Origin: a virus | Virus record (IMG/VR): IMGVR_UViG_3300031673_000603 | Location: 1-20,334 of that record | Direction: 5' to 3' (one strand) | Length of the DNA: 20,334 nucleotides | Part shown: positions 4,594-20,334 of the stretch, one piece after another | How positions within the stretch are numbered: position 1 is the first letter of the stretch | Layout: the number at the start of each line of letters is the position of its first letter | Translations under genes and position numbers: made by a program | The notes under the pieces: generated by a model | Database searches by the model: none | The model's input: the letters and a program-made list of their open reading frames with translations, nothing else | Told to the model about the DNA's origin: nothing

Positions 4594-5706
4594 TCAGGCG
4601 TAAGCAGTTACATCGAAAGGTGTGTTTACCAGCAAGCGGGCCACGGGGACCATCTTGGTGGTGGAGTACACCAGGTTCCAGCTGCTGGTGTTACCCAGTT
4701 GGTCGGAAGCAGTGGTGTTGAGGGGGTTGTCGGTGGCGGCAGCCCACTTGGTGCCGGTTACGTGGTAACCGTAGTGGTAATCCACAGCCAGAACGTCCTG
4801 CATGGACAGGATGTTGCGGTCGGCAGCAAGACGTAGGTCCTGTTGGATGCCTTCAGCAACTACGCCCGACTTGAACAGGTAGACGGGGTACTTCTTGGCG
4901 TGGGTTGCGGTGCCGCCGGTAAGGGCGACGAGTTGGTCGTCGATGACGACACGCAGACCAGCGAAGAAAGGCACTTCGGTTTGGCTTACGCCAACGCCGC
5001 CGCCGCCCCAGGTGATGGCACCGCCTGTTGACAGAGCTGAGGTGCTGAAGACCAGCATCCCGACTTGCTGCAGGTAGTAAGCCACGTTCGAGTGCATTGC
5101 AATCGAATCGAGTTCGTCGCCGCGCTCACCCAGCTTCACCTTGGTGCCAACGACGTTGGCGACGTTCAGGAAGTTGGCCTCGACCATTGAACCAGGGACG
5201 CCAGCGAAGGACTTGTCCAGTTGGTTGGGGCCAAGGACGCCAGCGCCGGAGATGCCGCCGAACAGACCAAGCAGTTGGGCTGCCAGAGTGGCAGTCTTCA
5301 GCTTGTTGATGGCTGCGGTGAGTTGGTTGCGGACGTGGGCCAAAGGATCGGCTCCGGAGCCCAGCTTGCTGAGATCATCAGCGGCGTAGGCAAAGCCACG
5401 GTGCAGCAGGGTCATGATCTGCTCGTCGGCAGTCACGTTTGCAGGCACCAGGTAGCCGCCACCGCCACCCCAGGTGGAGTTGCTCAGAATCTGGGATTCA
5501 GTCGGGGCGATGGGGTCGAAGAATGGGACGCGGACGCGGGTGCCGCCAGCACGGGCATCAAGAGCAGCGTTGCGCTGCACAATGCCGGACTGAACCCACT
5601 TCGACTGCTCAAAGATACCTTCAGCGGTGTACTGAAGGAACTCGGGGCGGGTAACAAGGTTGGAGAGGAATGTTCCTCCCGAATAATTGCCGCTAAAGGC
5701 AGACAT
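4594..5706 (-). CDS. Major capsid protein
   Basis: 370 residues. Features of a phage coat protein include the N-terminal TFLSNLVTRPEFLQYTAEGI, a beta segment GGTRVRVPFFDPI, a glycine loop WGGGGGYLVP, a helix-rich stretch around residues 105-150 ending LAAQLLGLFGG, and a C-terminal mixed beta region. This layout (N-arm, extended loop, long helical domain, beta region) fits an HK97-like coat protein. The preceding gene encodes a coiled-coil scaffold, and a strong terminator follows, both typical. The ATG has GGAG 7 bases upstream. About 400 copies per head would be expected for this type, which is family knowledge. The family is assigned by pattern; the position makes the call strong. Confidence 0.87.
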   Translation of the reverse strand: MSAFSGNYSGGTFLSNLVTRPEFLQYTAEGIFEQSKWVQSGIVQRNAALDARAGGTRVRVPFFDPIAPTESQILSNSTWGGGGGYLVPANVTADEQIMTLLHRGFAYAADDLSKLGSGADPLAHVRNQLTAAINKLKTATLAAQLLGLFGGISGAGVLGPNQLDKSFAGVPGSMVEANFLNVANVVGTKVKLGERGDELDSIAMHSNVAYYLQQVGMLVFSTSALSTGGAITWGGGGVGVSQTEVPFFAGLRVVIDDQLVALTGGTATHAKKYPVYLFKSGVVAEGIQQDLRLAADRNILSMQDVLAVDYHYGYHVTGTKWAAATDNPLNTTASDQLGNTSSWNLVYSTTKMVPVARLLVNTPFDVTAYA

Positions 5707-5747: not shown

Positions 5748-6461
5748 CTAGGCGCCGGCTTCTGATTTCAGGAGGCGGGCCATATCGGGGTTATCAACCA
5801 GCATCATCATCTGCTGGGTAACGTTCCAGGCTTCTTTAGACCAAGGGTTGGACTGACCTGGGACGGCGGTGGAACGGGCACTGCTCGTTACACCCATGCC
5901 GGAACGATTACTAGCAGCAAAATGATGCTCGTAACCACTGCCGGGATTTTTAAGATTAGCGATATAGTCGCTAATTGGAACTTCGACGCCTCCGGCGACA
6001 GCCACAGGCTGCCCTTCTTTAGCGCGTAGGTTCTCCTGCAACAAACGATACAGCTGATCGGGAGCTAATGCACCAGCTTGAGAAAGTTGGGCGATGGCGC
6101 CAGCGCGGAGCTGCTCTTGTGTGAAGCCTTGGCGGATTTGCTCCACTTCGGATTCTTTGGTGTTCAACTGTTGCTTGAGTTCGGCAACAGTTTTCTGGGC
6201 CTCTTCCCACAAAGTTCTGTACTCGCCGGATTCGGCAAGTTTTGTGGTTTTGGCTTGTTCTTGGGCAGAACGCAACTCCTCTACTTGTTGCTGCAAGGTG
6301 TCGCGGTTTTCGCGGTCCTTACGGCGCTCAGAAATTAGTTCTGCGTTTTTGGAACGCAAAGCCTCGATCTGACTGGCGAGGTCTTGTGTACCAGGGACAG
6401 CCACAGGCTGTTGGAAAGCGCCATCCACAGGAGGGACTTCCGGGGTCTGGTTTTCGGACAC
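5748..6461 (-). CDS. Capsid scaffolding protein
   Basis: 237 residues from a GTG start, beginning MSENQTPEVPP. Residues about 28-105 form a clear coiled coil rich in Q, E, K and R (for example LASQIEALRSKNAELISERR). After that come a short hydrophobic linker, AQLSQAGALAPDQLYRLL, and a C-terminal part ending ARLLKSEAGA that may contact the coat protein. Length, the coiled-coil core and the place directly upstream of the capsid gene are what is expected of a scaffold that guides procapsid assembly and is then removed. No protease gene or serine protease motif is visible nearby, so removal would be by exit or by an unseen protease. Confidence 0.85.
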   Translation of the reverse strand: MSENQTPEVPPVDGAFQQPVAVPGTQDLASQIEALRSKNAELISERRKDRENRDTLQQQVEELRSAQEQAKTTKLAESGEYRTLWEEAQKTVAELKQQLNTKESEVEQIRQGFTQEQLRAGAIAQLSQAGALAPDQLYRLLQENLRAKEGQPVAVAGGVEVPISDYIANLKNPGSGYEHHFAASNRSGMGVTSSARSTAVPGQSNPWSKEAWNVTQQMMMLVDNPDMARLLKSEAGA

Positions 6462-6512: not shown

Positions 6513-8753
6513 TTAGAAGATCAGCACGTTACGGCGGCGTGTAGTGCCGGACTTAGCGAGGGACGCATTGGCGCCAGTAAGCGCAAAAGTGCCTGCATCG
6601 GCCATTAGCTCTGTCACGCCTGCCTTTACAAGGTTGACTTCGTTGCCGGTAAGGGTGAAGGTTCCTGCGGCGGCCGCGATGGATCGGGCAGCTCTGACTG
6701 TGGCCTGATTGCCGGTGAGTGCAAAGGTGCCGGTATTAGCAGCTAGTGCTAGTGCGCTTACTTTTGCTAAGGCAGCAGCATTGCCGGTAAGCGCAAATGA
6801 TCCAGTGGCAGCGGCGATCTCATAGGCACCGACCTCTGTGAGGGTTGCTGGGTTGCCTGTGAGGGCAAAGGTGCCAGTGTCAGCGGCGATTGCCCGAGTG
6901 CGGGCGAATGTCGCTGCGTTGCCGGTTACAGCGAAAGTGCCTGTGGCGCCACTAAGAATGCGGCTTTGGGCAAGCGTGGGACTGCCGCCACTTAGCGCAA
7001 AGGTGCCGGTGTTGGCGCTTAGGAGCTGGTTGTGGCGAAGGGCAGCAACGTTGCCTGTTACTGCGAAGGCGCCGCTCTCGGCAGCGAGTGCGTAGCTGTG
7101 GCGGAGTGCTGCGGGCTCGCCGTTGAGCGCAAAAGTGCCAGTATCTGCAGCAAATATGCGGCTGCGGCTTAGCTGTGCCGGCTGGCCGCTGAGTGCAAAA
7201 GAAGCGACAACCGGGTCGATCTCAACAACGCCAATACTGGTGAGGGTTGCTGGGTTGCCGGTTAGTGCAAAGGTGCCGGCCGCTGGGCGTATTGCCCAGG
7301 TGCGGCGGAATGTGGCCGGCTGGCCAGTTTCGATGAAGGTGCCAGATCCGCCGCTGAGGTAGCGGCCGTGCAGCACAGCAGGAGTGCCGCCTGTTAGCGC
7401 GAAGGCGCCAGTGGCTGCCTCGATGCGCAGGTTGTGGAGAAGCGTGGCTGGCTGACCGGTGGCGGTAAACGTGCCAGTGTCAGCAGTAAGGCGGTAGTTC
7501 TGGCGCAGCGTGGCTTGTTGGCCATTGAGCGCAAAGGTGCCGGTGCCGGCGGCAATTACAGCGTTGCTTTCAAGAGTGGCTGCGTTGCCAGTGAGCGTGA
7601 ACGCACCTGGGTCAGCGGCAAGGGCAAAACCACGACTGACGGTGGCAGTGTTGCCGGTGAGCGCGAAGACGCCCGTCTCAGCCTCGATGCGCTCGGTGTC
7701 GGCCAAGCCAGCAGGGTTACCTGTGAGGCTGAATGCACCAGTGGCTGCATCGAGGTAGCGACCAATGCTGAGCGATGCGGCGCCGCCAGTTAGCGCAAAG
7801 GTGCCGGTGTCAGCGGTGATGATCTTGGGCGCTGCCGCCTTGGCCAGCGTGGCGGCATTACCTGTGAAGCTGAACGCGCCCGTCTCGGCAGTGATCGCTG
7901 CGTTGTCCTCAAGCGTGGCAACATTGCCCGTGAGGTTGAAGTCGCCCGCGTCAATGGTGATCTTGTACTGCTGGGCGAAGTTGGCGACGTTGCCCGTCAG
8001 CGTGAAGGTGCCTAGATCAGCGGCTATTGCTTTGACGGCTACCACTGTCAGCGTGGCGTCGTTGCCGGTGAGCGTGAAGCTACCCGTCCCACCAGCGACG
8101 TTCCATGCCGTCACCTCGCGGACTGCAACGTAAACCGCTGCTACGTCATCACTGGAAGCGGTAAAGCCCACATCGCGAGCACCTTGCCCGGCAGTGGTTT
8201 CGCGGACCATGGAGGCGCATCTTGGGCCAAAGTCGATGCTGGTGAGCGTTGTGCTGCCCGTTCCAGCCGGTGGCACGGCGCCACGCCCGGAATACGTTGC
8301 GGCATAGCGCAAGCTGTTGATGCCTGAGCTGCCATCGTCAACGGCAACAGGCGTTAGCGATTGGTTTCCCTCTTCAATTTGTATGCCAGTTACATTGACA
8401 TCGGCGCCAGCCGTGACGGTGGCTGCCGACGCATACATGGTCCTGCCGTTGTTGGTGCGGTTGACCGTGATGGTTTGGTTGCCAGTGCCAAGGCCGCTGC
8501 CAAGGAAGAACATATCTGTTCGACCTGGCTCGCCTGCCGTGTCAATAGCCACCGCACCAGCTACTCGCGTCAGCGCCAGTCCGCCGTATGTGACGCTGAT
8601 GACGAAATCAGACTCGTTATTGATCGTATGCACAAAAACGAGCACCCCTTGAGGAGTGCCGCTTTGTACGTGCGTCCAGCTAAAGCTGGCTTGGTTTGTT
8701 GAGCCAGTGGTGCCTGTATGCGACACAGAGGCAGCACTATGGGCAACAGCCAT
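6513..8753 (-). CDS. Large repeat protein, probable virion surface or fibre-like protein
   Basis: 746 residues. Residues 1-215 form a beta-rich domain (SVSHTGTTGSTNQASFSWTH, VLVFVHTINNESDF, YGGLALTRVAGA) of a type found at the start of phage surface proteins. From about residue 216 to the end there are about 23 tandem degenerate repeats of about 22 residues, each with the core TGTFALTGNPATL followed by a variable linker. The C-terminus is RRRNVLIF. Similar ALTG repeats occur in uncharacterised phage proteins; their fold is not known to me, though the period suggests a beta solenoid or stacked hairpins. It lies among portal, scaffold and capsid genes rather than tail-tip genes, so it may decorate the capsid. 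Receptor or glycan binding is inference. Confidence 0.7.
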   Translation of the reverse strand: MAVAHSAASVSHTGTTGSTNQASFSWTHVQSGTPQGVLVFVHTINNESDFVISVTYGGLALTRVAGAVAIDTAGEPGRTDMFFLGSGLGTGNQTITVNRTNNGRTMYASAATVTAGADVNVTGIQIEEGNQSLTPVAVDDGSSGINSLRYAATYSGRGAVPPAGTGSTTLTSIDFGPRCASMVRETTAGQGARDVGFTASSDDVAAVYVAVREVTAWNVAGGTGSFTLTGNDATLTVVAVKAIAADLGTFTLTGNVANFAQQYKITIDAGDFNLTGNVATLEDNAAITAETGAFSFTGNAATLAKAAAPKIITADTGTFALTGGAASLSIGRYLDAATGAFSLTGNPAGLADTERIEAETGVFALTGNTATVSRGFALAADPGAFTLTGNAATLESNAVIAAGTGTFALNGQQATLRQNYRLTADTGTFTATGQPATLLHNLRIEAATGAFALTGGTPAVLHGRYLSGGSGTFIETGQPATFRRTWAIRPAAGTFALTGNPATLTSIGVVEIDPVVASFALSGQPAQLSRSRIFAADTGTFALNGEPAALRHSYALAAESGAFAVTGNVAALRHNQLLSANTGTFALSGGSPTLAQSRILSGATGTFAVTGNAATFARTRAIAADTGTFALTGNPATLTEVGAYEIAAATGSFALTGNAAALAKVSALALAANTGTFALTGNQATVRAARSIAAAAGTFTLTGNEVNLVKAGVTELMADAGTFALTGANASLAKSGTTRRRNVLIF
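6520..8110 (-). repeat. About 23 tandem ~66-base coding repeats
   Basis: The minus strand encodes degenerate copies of G(T/A)F(A/T)LTGN-ATL with a period of about 22 codons. A few units are 23 to 26 codons (for example those ending AKAAAPKIITA and TSIGVVEIDPV). No two copies seem identical at DNA level, so the array is old or under diversifying change. Confidence 0.85.
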
Positions 8754-8775: not shown

Positions 8776-9195
8776 TTAGGCCAAGGTCAGGATGCCAGCA
8801 GCATCCCAGGTGATCGTGAAGGTTTCGCCGTTCAGCAGGTCAACCGTTGCGCCGTAGTCGTAGTAGCCGATTAGCTCATCGCTGGTGGCGGTGTCGTTGA
8901 ACAAGACCACATAGCGGAATGTCGGCACCGTGCCAGTGGCGGTTAACACCAGATCGTTGGCATCAAGTGTGTAGGTGCCGCTAACCTGCGCTGAGGTCAC
9001 GCCAGCCAAGTTGCGGCCAGTGGTGGTGCCGTCTTGGATGTTGGTGTAGGAAATCTGCGTGATGTTGGCCAGCACCGTGTTGGTGGCGAGAGGGGCGCTA
9101 TTACACAGTGCCACCGTCAGAGTGTCAGCACCAAGGTTGTGGACCTTCTCGGAGAGTGCCTCCACAAAGGAGTTAAACTTGTTGAAGGTGGCCAT
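8776..9195 (-). CDS. Conserved-type phage virion protein of unknown role
   Basis: 139 residues, beginning MATFNKFNSFVEALSEKVHNLG and then beta-rich. The later part, TFRYVVLFNDTATSDELIGYYDYG followed by NGETFTITWDAAGILTLA, is a pattern I recognise from a widespread family of small phage proteins with no firm function. It lies in a row of four beta-rich genes between portal and scaffold. The ending resembles a beta sandwich or jelly roll, which would suit a decoration or fibre-base protein. A candidate promoter lies 28 bases upstream. No ribosome-binding site of note is seen before the ATG. Confidence 0.6.
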   Translation of the reverse strand: MATFNKFNSFVEALSEKVHNLGADTLTVALCNSAPLATNTVLANITQISYTNIQDGTTTGRNLAGVTSAQVSGTYTLDANDLVLTATGTVPTFRYVVLFNDTATSDELIGYYDYGATVDLLNGETFTITWDAAGILTLA

Positions 9196-9222: not shown

Positions 9223-9250
9223 ATTGTAAGTGCTAGAAGGCAAAGGACAA
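9223..9250 (-). promoter_or_regulatory. Candidate sigma70-type promoter before 139-residue gene
   Basis: Minus strand TTGTCC (9245-9250), 16-base spacer, TACAAT (9223-9228, five of six matches to TATAAT). It overlaps the end of the upstream collagen-like gene and would start RNA just before the 139-residue gene. Confidence 0.45.
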
Positions 9251-9697
9251 GTTGAACTCGGTCACTGTGCCCGTAACTGCGGTTATTTTTACCCAGACAT
9301 AGCGGCCTGACGGGATGGGTTGATTCTGTATGGTTGCGGCGTTTCCGGTAGTGGTGCTAGTGGCGGTGGCTGCAACAATTGCTGCTGTGCCTGCATCGGC
9401 TCGATTGGCGGCATAAAGCAGTTCATAGGTAATGCTTGGACTACTGCCGCGCACTATCGCTAACACTTGGGTAAAAGTAGTGGCCTCCTGAGTGCGGAAC
9501 AAGGTAAATTCGTCATTGACAAGTGGTTCGGCAATTGTTACTGATTTTGGGCCAGTAGCGCCAGCTGGGCCTTGGGGGCCTAGGCCAGTTGTTTCGACCA
9601 GTACTGCAGGACTGGGGGCGGTGACGACAGTTATGTCACCAACGCCTTCGGTTACTACAACTACTTGGTAGGCGTCGTCAATGTTTACCGTGTTCAT
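9233..9697 (-). CDS. Small protein with collagen-like segment, probable fibre or decoration component
   Basis: 154 residues. Residues about 37-50 contain GPQGPAGATGP, a short collagen-like Gly-X-Y run often used in phage fibres to trimerise. Before it is a small beta domain (YQVVVVTEGVGDITVV). After it lies a beta-rich domain (SVTIAEPLVNDEFTLFRT ... GRYVWVKITAVTGTVTEFNLSF) that looks like a jelly roll. It overlaps the upstream 112-residue gene by 4 bases (ATGA), so the two are coupled. The overall plan of N-terminal anchor, collagen spacer and C-terminal beta head is that of a short trimeric fibre. Whether it sits on head or tail is not evident. Confidence 0.6.
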   Translation of the reverse strand: MNTVNIDDAYQVVVVTEGVGDITVVTAPSPAVLVETTGLGPQGPAGATGPKSVTIAEPLVNDEFTLFRTQEATTFTQVLAIVRGSSPSITYELLYAANRADAGTAAIVAATATSTTTGNAATIQNQPIPSGRYVWVKITAVTGTVTEFNLSFAF

Positions 9698-10032
9698 GCT
9701 GTGTATCCCTCAGAGACGTACACAGCACCTTCTAGATAGTATTCGCGTAGTGTGGCAGGGTTTTCTAGTAGTACGTCGTAGTAACACTCGTCTGGGAGTG
9801 TTGTTGTTTGGGCGTCGGTTAATGTGATGCTGATTTGGCCGGTTGCTCGGTTGGTGTACGTTATAGAGAAGTCGGCAAATTTGGTGCTGCGGCCACGATT
9901 CCAGACCTGGGCATACGCTGTCCACCCGGTAAGGTTGATCGGGGCGCCAGTGCTGTCTTTGAATTGGAGTGCTACGGAGTAGTCAGCGCGGCGTTGCAGG
10001 CTGATGTTGTACGTGCCAGGTGATACGGCCAT
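9694..10032 (-). CDS. Small beta-sandwich virion protein (BppU-like N-terminal type)
   Basis: 112 residues, beginning MAVSPGTYNISLQRRADYSV, continuing FKDSTGAPINLTGWTAYAQVW and ending YYLEGAVYVSEGYTA. The 'GTYNI-x-xxRGxDY ... F-DxxGxPxDLTGWTA-AQ' layout matches small Ig-like domains seen in phage baseplate and fibre proteins such as the BppU N-terminal domain. It starts 4 bases after the portal stop codon (downstream in the minus direction) and overlaps the collagen-like gene by 4 bases. Probably a base or adaptor for the neighbouring fibre-like proteins; this is inference from co-location. Confidence 0.6.
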   Translation of the reverse strand: MAVSPGTYNISLQRRADYSVALQFKDSTGAPINLTGWTAYAQVWNRGRSTKFADFSITYTNRATGQISITLTDAQTTTLPDECYYDVLLENPATLREYYLEGAVYVSEGYTA

Positions 10033-10036
10033 TTCA

Positions 10037-11482
10037 TCAAGCCTCTGATTCTGTCATTGTATTGGACTTTGGCAGGGACTCCTGCACTTGCACGGCAGCT
10101 TCGGCCATTTCGGTCGCTTTTGTCTCCATTGCTTCTAGTTCTGCGTCGATGTCCATGTTGTCGGGCAGAATTTCGCCTCGGCGTAGGACTTCCAGCAGCG
10201 TTGAGTTGCTGATCTTGCCTGATTCGTTTAGTTGGGCGAGGACTGCGATGTCTTGGCCGATTAGGCGGTAGTAGTCGAAGTCGCGGTCGATTGTGATGAC
10301 CGGGGGCTCCATGCCCACGTATTGGGCGGCGAAGGCGAACGCTTGGTTGAGGCAGGATTCCAGTTCTTGGCTAATGATTGAGAGGACGCTGTTGGCTTGG
10401 GCTTGGTCGATGCGCTTGGCCTCGGCAGATTCGGCTACAAATTTCTGGCCGAATAGTTTGGTGATGCCCAACGTGGACATCTGGGCCTCCAGGGATTGGA
10501 GTTCGTTCATTTGGGCGTCGAAACTGGTGGCGTCGGATTGGACGTAATACGCTTTGTGGCCTGGTTCCATGCCCAAGGCGTAGTTGACGCCGATAGTGGC
10601 CTCGCTGCTGTCTTGGCTGTAACCCTCTAGGACCAGTGTGGGCATTGCCGCGATGTGGAGCGCGTGGATTAGGTCGCTTTGGCGCTGGTAGTGGGTGATA
10701 TTTAGGTTGGAGATGTCCAGGAGTGGGGGTTGGGAGATAAGGACGCCACGCCGGTTGCTGTAAATGGGGACTACGGGGATGGTGTCGAGGCTGAAGCCGC
10801 CCGATTCCGTTAGGTCTACTGTTTCGGTGCTACGGCCCAGGGTGTAGAGGTCGTAGCGGCCTGGGTAGATCACCCGCATTACTTCGACCTGTTCTTCCCC
10901 GAACTCGTTAAGGGGGCGGTACTCGTAGTCGTGGATGCGGATTTGGGTCAGGCGGTTGGTGGCATCTTTGCGCCAGCCCCAGATTTGGGGGGCATCGACG
11001 TGTACAAAGTAGGGGCGGCGGCCCATTGCGCGTTCTTCCGCCAGATTTAGTGCTCCAGTCGCTGCTGGGAAATCGACCAGGATCGCGCTGTGGCCGTAGG
11101 TCAGGCTGCTGACTAGGGCGCGGCGGGCGTACTCGTTGATGCTGGAGCCGATGCCGTCGATGTTTTCGGCTAGGTCGCTCCAGTACGGGTCGCCTTCGAT
11201 GTGGATTGGTTTACGGAGGACGGCGCCAGCTGCTGTTTCGATTAGCCGGCTGGTGTACGGGGACAGGACGCTGCGGTTGATGCGGGTTTGCCAGGCTTCG
11301 TCGTCTTCGCGGGGTTCTTGGGGGAGGTACAGCTCAGCGAGATCGCGGATGTAGTTGGTGCCATTAGTGACGGCAGCGACTACTTTCCAGTCAGGCATCA
11401 TGCCAATCACTTCTAGTGATCGGACGAAGGGGGACTCGCTGACGATTGCGCCAGTTGGGGGGACGTTGGCGCTGTAAACCAC
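10037..11482 (-). CDS. Portal protein
   Basis: 481 residues from a GTG start with AGGAG about 6 bases upstream. The N-terminal third has the portal-like helix and stem layout SPFVRSLEVIGMMPDWKVV, then YLPQEPREDDEAWQTRINRSV and SPYTSRLIETAAGAVLRKP, which resemble portals of the DUF4055 type. The last third carries a long helix with LNQAFAFAAQYVG and a charged, methionine-rich helical C-terminus (AELEAMETKATEMAEAAVQ). Portals form the twelve-subunit ring at one capsid vertex through which DNA is packaged. It lies downstream of the large terminase with two tiny genes between, which is a normal order. The four beta-rich surface genes that follow it are unusual there. Confidence 0.87.
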   Translation of the reverse strand: MVYSANVPPTGAIVSESPFVRSLEVIGMMPDWKVVAAVTNGTNYIRDLAELYLPQEPREDDEAWQTRINRSVLSPYTSRLIETAAGAVLRKPIHIEGDPYWSDLAENIDGIGSSINEYARRALVSSLTYGHSAILVDFPAATGALNLAEERAMGRRPYFVHVDAPQIWGWRKDATNRLTQIRIHDYEYRPLNEFGEEQVEVMRVIYPGRYDLYTLGRSTETVDLTESGGFSLDTIPVVPIYSNRRGVLISQPPLLDISNLNITHYQRQSDLIHALHIAAMPTLVLEGYSQDSSEATIGVNYALGMEPGHKAYYVQSDATSFDAQMNELQSLEAQMSTLGITKLFGQKFVAESAEAKRIDQAQANSVLSIISQELESCLNQAFAFAAQYVGMEPPVITIDRDFDYYRLIGQDIAVLAQLNESGKISNSTLLEVLRRGEILPDNMDIDAELEAMETKATEMAEAAVQVQESLPKSNTMTESEA

Positions 11483-18169: not shown

Positions 18170-18201
18170 AATCATGTCCTTTCTTGTGGGAGTCTAACAC
18201 T

Positions 18202-20334
18202 GTGTCTACTGAGTCGCAAGACCTGCTCAATTTTGTTGCGCAATTGCCTGAGGGCTTTGCCTACGCGCCTATCTACGTCAAGGGTTCCAGCCTTCAGTCC
18301 GGGAAGGTCAGCAAGGGCAAGACGCCGCTGGAGAAGTCGCACCATGCGGTGTTGACGCCGGCTGATGTGGCGCTACAGATCCAGCGCAGGCCCGATGTTT
18401 TTCGGGCTGTAGGTGTTTTTACTGGTGCCCGTAGCCAAGGTCTGGTGATCTTGGACGTGGACCGCAACCTTTCCAGGTTGGCTAAGCAGTGGGCTGACAC
18501 CCTTGATGGGGCCCCCAAGGTCACCAGCACCAAGGGCAACGCTGCGAAGTACCTGTACCGCGTTCCAGAGGCTCTGTGGGGCGAGGTAAGTGGTTTTGGG
18601 TTGTCGGATACCGGGGCCGGCTATGAAGTGCTCTGGGGGCGCCAGGGGCTGCTGTATGGGGCCTATCCGGGCTCCAGTGATGGGAAGGGGGCCGAAGGCT
18701 TCTATGGCTTTGAGGGCGATCTGGAGGTTATTCCAGAGGCTCCAGCGTGGTTGCTAGCTGAGATGAAGGACCATGCCGGCAAAGGCCCGGTTGATGGTGG
18801 CTTCATCAAAAACCGGAAGGCGTTGGACTTTTCGGATCGGGCACCGGAAGAGGTGGCTGAAATTATTCAGTCGGCTTTGCGGGTGATTCCAGGGCAAGGC
18901 GGTGGCAGCCGGGACCACTGGATCAAAGTTGGTATGGCGATCCACTCGGAGTTGCCTACCGACCTTGGTTTGGCGTTGTGGTCAGCGTGGTCAGCGGACG
19001 ATCCAGAGTTTGCTGATGACTGGACTGATGGGAACCCTTGTGAGGATGCCTGGAAGAGCTTTAAGCGGGGCTCGGTGAGCCTCGGGACGCTGTTCTGGCT
19101 GGCAGATCAGCAGCTGCCGGGCCGGCTGTGGTTGTCCGAAGATCTGCGGAAGGTTGTTACCGATATTGAAGTTGACAACGTGACCCGGATTCGGCAAGTC
19201 ACGTTGAACTACGCCGAGGTTATTAAGCGGGCTAGGGCGCTCCAGGAATTGGATAACCCGGCTGAGATGGCCCACTGCATGAATGTTTTGGCGCTTGAAG
19301 CTGGGTATCGGGATGCCGGTGCGTTGGAGCGCCTGCTCATTAGTCAGATCCAGTACGAACAACAGGAGGATGAAATCGGCATGGATCGTTTGCTATCCAA
19401 GGATCTGCGGTTTGAGTATCTGATCCCGGATCTGTTGCCCTGCCCTGGCACGGTCATGATCCACGGGGCTGGGGGAGACGGTAAGTCGATGTCGGCTTGG
19501 ACCATTGCCAAGCATGTGGCGAGGGGTATTCCGTTTTCGGTGCGGGGTGATCTTGTTCCAGTGGAAGCTGGGCCGGTGTTGATCCTGAACGGGGACCAGT
19601 CTGAAGTTCAGGTTCAGCAGCAAATGCGCGACCTGGAATTTGATGCCTCTGATCCTGTGACGGTGGTTATGGGCTGGGACTTGAACTGGTACTTCCGGTT
19701 TGTCAAGTTGATTGAGAAGCACCGTCCCAAGCTGGTGATTATTGATTCGATCACGGGTTGTAGCCGGGGTTCTGCGTTCGACGAGAACAAGAAAGAGTTT
19801 GCTAGCCCGATTTACTGGCTGTCGAACAACAACGGCAGGCTCTTTCCCGGCTGCACCATCCTGCTGATCCACCACGCCAACAAGACCGGGGGGTTCAGGG
19901 GGTCTACGGCTATTAGGGACGCTGTGGACGAGGTGTGGGGGCTTAGGAGGCCCGATAAGCGCCAGTTGGAGCAGGTAGGGCACAACGCTCGTTTGATCGC
20001 CGTGGAGAAGTCCAGAGCAGGCAGGGATGGTTCCAGGCTTCTGATGAAGCTGGAAGACGACCTCACGTTCTCGCTCGCTGATTACGTCGAAACCGACGTG
20101 GAGAGTGCCAACCCTGCATCGGTGGTGGATCGCGTCTTACAGCGCCTCAGAGCGGCCTATCCGAGGGCTCTAGCTGTGACCGACCTGGCAGCTGATCCAC
20201 TCTGCGGTGGGAAGGTCGCCGCTATTCGTAAATCGCTCCAGCGCCTTCTCTCTAGGGGGTTGATTGAGATAGGGGGTGTTGCGGAGTCCGGTAAGGCAGG
20301 TAGACCGTCGAACCAGTACGTAGCTTTACTGTCG
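18202..20334 (+). CDS. Primase-helicase, Prim-Pol plus RepA-like ATPase (runs off right edge)
   Basis: 711 codons from GTG 18202 with no stop before the window end; ribosome-binding site GGGAG lies 9 bases upstream. Residues about 20-190 form an archaeo-eukaryotic primase (Prim-Pol) domain with LVILDVDRN (D85, D87 as metal ligands). Residues about 215-315 resemble a PriCT linker domain (EIIQSALRVIPGQGGG). Residues about 405-600 are a RecA-like ATPase of the RepA/AAA_25 type: Walker A GAGGDGKS at 422-429, Walker B KLVIIDS with D515, and HHANKT as sensor-like segment. A C-terminal winged helix follows (VTDLAADPLCGGKVAAIRKS). It would prime and unwind DNA at the phage fork. The usual histidine of Prim-Pol motif II is not obvious near STKGNAAKYLYR. 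Confidence 0.88.
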   Translation, partial: MSTESQDLLNFVAQLPEGFAYAPIYVKGSSLQSGKVSKGKTPLEKSHHAVLTPADVALQIQRRPDVFRAVGVFTGARSQGLVILDVDRNLSRLAKQWADTLDGAPKVTSTKGNAAKYLYRVPEALWGEVSGFGLSDTGAGYEVLWGRQGLLYGAYPGSSDGKGAEGFYGFEGDLEVIPEAPAWLLAEMKDHAGKGPVDGGFIKNRKALDFSDRAPEEVAEIIQSALRVIPGQGGGSRDHWIKVGMAIHSELPTDLGLALWSAWSADDPEFADDWTDGNPCEDAWKSFKRGSVSLGTLFWLADQQLPGRLWLSEDLRKVVTDIEVDNVTRIRQVTLNYAEVIKRARALQELDNPAEMAHCMNVLALEAGYRDAGALERLLISQIQYEQQEDEIGMDRLLSKDLRFEYLIPDLLPCPGTVMIHGAGGDGKSMSAWTIAKHVARGIPFSVRGDLVPVEAGPVLILNGDQSEVQVQQQMRDLEFDASDPVTVVMGWDLNWYFRFVKLIEKHRPKLVIIDSITGCSRGSAFDENKKEFASPIYWLSNNNGRLFPGCTILLIHHANKTGGFRGSTAIRDAVDEVWGLRRPDKRQLEQVGHNARLIAVEKSRAGRDGSRLLMKLEDDLTFSLADYVETDVESANPASVVDRVLQRLRAAYPRALAVTDLAADPLCGGKVAAIRKSLQRLLSRGLIEIGGVAESGKAGRPSNQYVALLS

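Follow-up and report, generated by a model that had tools for sequence, protein, structure and literature searches.

The tail-tip collar protein LtfC of the T5-like phage DT57C forms a ring that anchors the lateral fibres, and strands of LtfA added to the LtfC sheets hold these fibres (PMC10713586). The locus described here resembles this LtfA-LtfC system in that a gene cassette carries an LtfC-like beta-sandwich adaptor beside fibre-like proteins. It differs in the position of the cassette slot among head genes and in its fibre components: a coiled coil of the LtfA type is absent, and a collagen-like protein and a protein with an array of ALTG repeats are found instead. Collagen-like phage tail fibres (PF01391; PHROG collagen-like minor tail) have their counterpart in the collagen-like partner of the cassette, giant versions of which accompany array-less forms, whereas Gly-X-Y repeats are absent from the array protein. 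Phage minor tail proteins with one beta-sandwich (phrog_2106; those of the Mycobacterium phages Tweety and Gaia) share the fold of the N-terminal domain of the array protein (the head domain) and show weak profile similarity to it, but the likeness is limited to this domain. A further relative is bacterial: in an MshQ-like protein encoded in a Sulfuritalea MAG, the first domain is 60% identical to the head domain, MshQ being a putative MSHA adhesin (PMC7096442). The phage protein lacks the Laminin_G_3 and DUF6701 parts of the MshQ-like protein, which in turn has no array. Finally, gp72 of EBPR siphovirus 2 and a hypothetical protein of MW202742 carry ALTG arrays near a homologue of g139, the 139-residue partner introduced below, in otherwise different phages; both are without the head domain, and gp72 runs on into an unrelated C-terminal half. 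A literature search returned nothing directly on the ALTG repeat or the cassette.

The window, that is, the whole stretch of DNA analysed, is a complete metagenomic virus record of 20,334 bases and is probably a fragment. Its structural block has the gene order portal, LtfC-like, collagen-like, g139, array protein, scaffold, and capsid (Table 1). The LtfC-like adaptor scored 37.1 bits against PF23926 (gathering threshold 27 bits), and the collagen-like protein reaches 512-1728 residues in some relatives. Scanning the window for Rfam families and tRNAs gave no matches. On the minus strand, positions 2-637 probably encode the start of a tape measure protein truncated at the edge of the window, and positions 872-1219 and 687-1112 a tail assembly chaperone that a second, downstream frame overlaps. 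A programmed frameshift is usual ahead of the tape measure gene, and this overlap resembles it. On the plus strand, opposite to the structural genes, a 717-residue frame (positions 18184-20334) resembles a primase/RepA-type helicase.

Table 1. Features of the array protein gene and its neighbourhood in the window
Feature	Positions	Strand	Size	Remarks
Array protein gene	6513..8753	-	746 aa	intact relatives in viral loci
Head domain (N-domain), residues 1-215	8109..8753	-		beta-sandwich; 47-83% identity across family
23-unit array, residues 224-738	6540..8084	-	22 aa/unit	
C-tail RRRNVLIF, residues 739-746	6516..6539	-		kept in 46/47 complete long family members
Partner g139	8776..9195	-	139 aa	phrog_644
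Collagen-like protein	9233..9697	-	154 aa	GPQGPAGATGP stretch
LtfC-like adaptor	9694..10032	-	112 aa	Pfam PF23926 E 5e-9; phrog_3304 E 2e-16
Portal	10037..11482	-		upstream boundary of cassette slot; phrog_145 E 2.5e-107
Scaffolding protein	5748..6461	-		downstream boundary of cassette; phrog_206 E 1e-16
Major capsid protein	4594..5706	-		phrog_247 E 1.3e-40

The array protein gene has an ATG start and an intact reading frame, and the plus-strand frames within its limits are antisense by-products. The repeat units follow the pattern G-x-F-x-L-T-G-N-x-A-T-L-x(10), with G1, F3, L5, G7, A10, and L12 as the common core positions; units 1, 4, 13, 19, 20, and 22 are extended to 24-25 residues. The motif [GA]xFxx[TSN]G occurred 23 times at spacings of 22 or 24-25 residues, as against a mean of 0.35 and a maximum of 3 in 1000 shuffles, and self-identity of the protein peaked at lags of 22, 44, and 66. 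An earlier note on this DNA, which gave no strand, had described the protein as intact, with about 23 units and small length changes in a few of them, and was borne out on each of these points. At the DNA level the units are 60-79% identical to a reference copy, and Tandem Repeats Finder detected no array. Because of this strong divergence and the empty Tandem Repeats Finder result, the units were judged to be old and individually diverged within a maintained array, and recent tandem expansion by slippage was ruled out. The sole Pfam match, Lipocalin_4 (PF13648, E 1.6e-7), was rejected: its score is summed over the repeats, the best stretch covers 33 residues, no single stretch of the array protein passes alone, and the relative P0002 was unmatched.

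AF2 modelling of the full array protein with 35 sequences (mean pLDDT 79, pTM 0.55) gave almost every unit three short strands, at positions 2-6, 10-13, and 17-20, and predicted no helix. This pattern is as expected of a three-sided solenoid, and the array is accordingly a predicted rod, in line with the regular solenoid or rod proposed before. Modelled alone, the head domain gave a beta-sandwich with a pTM of 0.87, confirming it as the separate beta domain that had been postulated. PDB fold searches with the full array protein and the head domain yielded nothing at E<=0.001; for single-stranded beta-helix tailspikes the best match, 7vul, was not significant (E 0.029, prob 0.11). By sequence and fold together, no convincing PDB relative was found for the full protein, the head domain, g139, the LtfC-like adaptor, or the collagen-like protein. 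A BFVD fold search returned 37 matches. Many were minor tail proteins, and their alignments spanned about 220 residues, which equals the length of the head domain.

An IMG/VR profile search with the first 222 residues identified 62 loci carrying the head domain (loci are designated by L numbers). The phrog_2106 (minor tail) profile matched 12 of 26 head-domain members, with a best E-value of 3.7e-8; the head domain of the window gave no match at the PHROG threshold used, and the domain was not found in GenBank phages. Orf28 of Gordonia phage GMA1, encoded beside a g139 homologue, looked alike by eye and was set aside as unsupported by hhalign. Neither head domain nor array showed a ligand or enzyme signature. 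Among 84,980 species genomes, the head profile matched only residues ~45-250 of the 1550-residue MshQ-like protein of the Sulfuritalea MAG (L066:9789-14441), the gene for which lies near secretin and prepilin genes. The domain was absent from 150 other genomes of the family of this MAG and from the 368 genomes of its class that were searched, so that it occurred in one of 519 bacterial genomes. A MAG can hold misbinned contigs, yet the domain lies inside an intact pilus-operon gene. This homologue fits a displayed binding domain. The earlier view that similar repeats occur only in uncharacterised phage proteins holds for the repeats; the head domain reaches into a bacterial pilus-adhesin-like protein. 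The presence of so close a relative in an MSHA-type operon also bears on the idea that the array protein acts outside the virion during infection or lysogeny, e.g. displayed on the host pilus or interfering with it. We regard this as very improbable, as the phage protein begins directly with the domain that follows a signal peptide in the MshQ-like protein, the gene is located in a late structural operon in many chassis, and the domain is that rare in the bacterial genomes searched.

In 47 complete head-domain proteins, including that of the window, the array comprised 12-29 units (median 19). Seven further complete proteins (L014, L015, L018, L024, L036, L049, and L063) have no array and end right after the head domain. 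A repeat-consensus scan together with other loci extended the set to 82 different array proteins, each of 6-36 units; repeat number thus varies across related phages. Random pairs had a mean identity of 75% in the head domain versus 51% in the array. Even where head domains were 94-100% identical, the arrays were 47-80% identical and differed in unit count, e.g. 15 versus 17. The pair L051/L057 combined identical head domains (100%) with arrays of 20 and 16 units that were 80% identical, and head and array identities were 99% versus 49% for L021/L022 and 94% versus 48% for L051/L052. Nucleotide comparison of L005 and L007 revealed 86-88% identity on either side of a non-aligning array stretch of ~300 and 228 nt, respectively; L045 and L050 were 97% identical up to the array, where 198 additional nt corresponded to exactly three units. 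The break points fell inside the array in both comparisons. Compared with its chassis relatives, the window is ~72-87% identical at the DNA level across the genes for terminase, portal, scaffold, and capsid, and most of its array shares only short patches of identity with theirs. As read from these alignments, diverged units are exchanged, inserted, or deleted, and the arrays do not change by slippage of identical copies. The copy-number variation anticipated by the earlier note is therefore seen between relatives, though not as slippage of identical copies.

Further modules were found in and around the arrays. In several proteins, an insertion at the array start or close to it adds a domain of ~200 residues, which in L023, L025, and L028 matched the tail-protein family phrog_5939. 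Arrays sit on apparently unrelated heads, namely the head-domain type, a short MLGF-type, a MALP-type, and others; L129 and L130 have a different head and the same C-tail, with collagen-like and g139 genes upstream. In gp72 of EBPR siphovirus 2 (L004:5017-7776), the ALTG array is joined to a C-terminal part of 500 residues, and no PDB relatives were found for this half. These data bear on whether the array is a mere length spacer, with selection on having a rod while unit sequence drifts freely. The units do share only their core positions, and giant collagen fibres seemingly substitute for absent arrays in L015 and L049. Against this stand unit numbers ranging from 6 to 36, with no fixed length kept, the folded modules inserted in arrays, and the local mosaic replacement in L005/L007 and L045/L050, where drift would be even. 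We hold a pure spacer to be improbable.

The C-terminus of all but one of the 47 complete array proteins reads RRR-x-[VI]-[VLIF]-[LIV]-F, the exception being L017 with an unrelated C-terminal sequence. The C-tail-less gene of L017 (positions 545-2767) is followed by DNA 96% identical to that of L019, whose array gene does have the C-tail, and is possibly frameshifted. Among 47 occurrences, the C-tail had 33 different nucleotide spellings, and therefore the constraint acts on the protein. A looser version was detected in 52 of 1141 ORFs of the head-domain loci, every one a family member, and these include five array-less proteins (KRLVLVT, PRYILVT, PRYILIT). In the aligned family, the protein shows a three-part anatomy of fixed head, hypervariable array, and constant C-tail.

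The four-gene cassette of LtfC-like, collagen-like, g139, and array protein genes was syntenic across dozens of contigs and occupied two slots, one between portal and scaffold and the other between head-tail adaptor and head closure (L038/L054). Between the latter chassis and the window, g139 was 81-86% identical and the head domain 62-76%, as against 31-33% for the major capsid proteins, those of L038/L054 giving 31-32%; on this comparison, the cassette is transferable between virion chassis. Among chassis relatives of the window, the collagen-like protein (55-65% identity) and the array protein (62-83% in its head domain) were the least conserved of the block, versus 78-89% for the portal and 86-91% for the major capsid protein.

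Linkage of g139 was counted for arrays of at least five units in clusters with 3 kb or more of sequence upstream. Of 40 head-type array clusters, 39 had g139 nearby, as did 27 of 31 with other heads. No g139 adjoined the array-less head proteins, apart from one weak distant match in L036. By gene neighbourhood, g139 follows the array and not the head domain, and we consider this the strongest new fact reported here. Of 50,697 GenBank phage records, 11 contained g139; these include all five with detectable ALTG arrays, four of which are near-identical. A g139 homologue of cyanophage Pam1, Pam1_09 (ON014753.1:7866-8279), adjoins the needle-head gene. By eye, the start of the neighbouring Pam1_10 was suggestive of two degenerate units; this reading was not adopted, since the score was weak and was reached in 7 of 1000 shuffles of the chosen fragment and 203 of 1000 of the whole protein.

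The strongest argument for an appendage locus in this slot came from L015, which shares the chassis of the window (terminase 88%, portal 78%, scaffold 80% identity). Its slot holds an LtfC-like gene, a 1159-residue collagen fibre, an array-less head protein, a Gly_rich_2 protein that matches tail fibre and minor tail PHROGs, a Phage_tail_APC chaperone, and a glycosyltransferase. The latter, located downstream of the array-less head protein, is a glycosyltransferase-methyltransferase fusion (L015:10377-12023), also present in L049 (8711-10324), and might modify the fibre. The position of the array gene among head genes, between portal and scaffold/capsid or between head-tail adaptor and head closure, with no recognised tail-tip gene beside it and a collagen-like partner, could instead indicate a decoration fibre of the capsid or neck through which virions adhere to particles, mucus, or extracellular matter, and not a fibre that binds a receptor. 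We consider this unlikely, given that the replacement in the same slot contains a tail-assembly chaperone and tail-fibre PHROG matches and that LtfC, the homologue of the adaptor, belongs to the collar of the tail tip; such a fibre would in any case be compatible with the core notion of a modular appendage.

We therefore favour, at a probability of about 0.62, a modular appendage for host contact, with the array as its exchangeable rod or binding surface. The syntenic cassette in two slots, the replacement genes of L015, the constant head domain beside a variable array, the phrog_5939 insertions, the likeness of the head domain to minor tail proteins and to the MshQ-like protein, and the LtfC ring of DT57C were counted in favour of this reading. 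Counted against it were the position of the gene among head genes and the conservation of the head domain, which exceeds that expected of a receptor-binding domain, so that either end may be the distal one. The array protein would be the variable component contacting host or surroundings, comprising the beta-sandwich of the head, a rod in which beta units of 22 residues are stacked, and a short C-tail of basic and hydrophobic character. The LtfC-like/collagen part would attach it, and by analogy with the LtfA strands the C-tail may be a docking strand to g139 or to the LtfC-like protein. For g139 itself, a role as attachment, cap, or assembly factor is conceivable. Exchange, gain, or loss of units would diversify reach or binding surface under host pressure. 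The surface fibre suggested at the outset is in keeping with gene context and modularity, from which we infer that the array protein is probably part of the virion. More tentatively, and with the odds rather against it, ALTG array and g139 may together constitute an undescribed two-component appendage system widespread in uncultured phages, with a solenoid rod, interchangeable heads, unit exchange, gain, or loss, a fixed C-terminal docking strand, and g139 as dedicated partner.

If this is right, it names a repeat family that has no proper Pfam, NCBIfam, or PHROGs match and provides a function-linked partner for the unknown family phrog_644. It would also supply a natural unit-exchange series, with the same head, different arrays, and sometimes the same chassis, in which one could ask how phages retune host contact while the attachment machinery stays unchanged. 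That a pilus-adhesin-like protein has this head domain too suggests that phage and host both draw on one binding module in their encounter.
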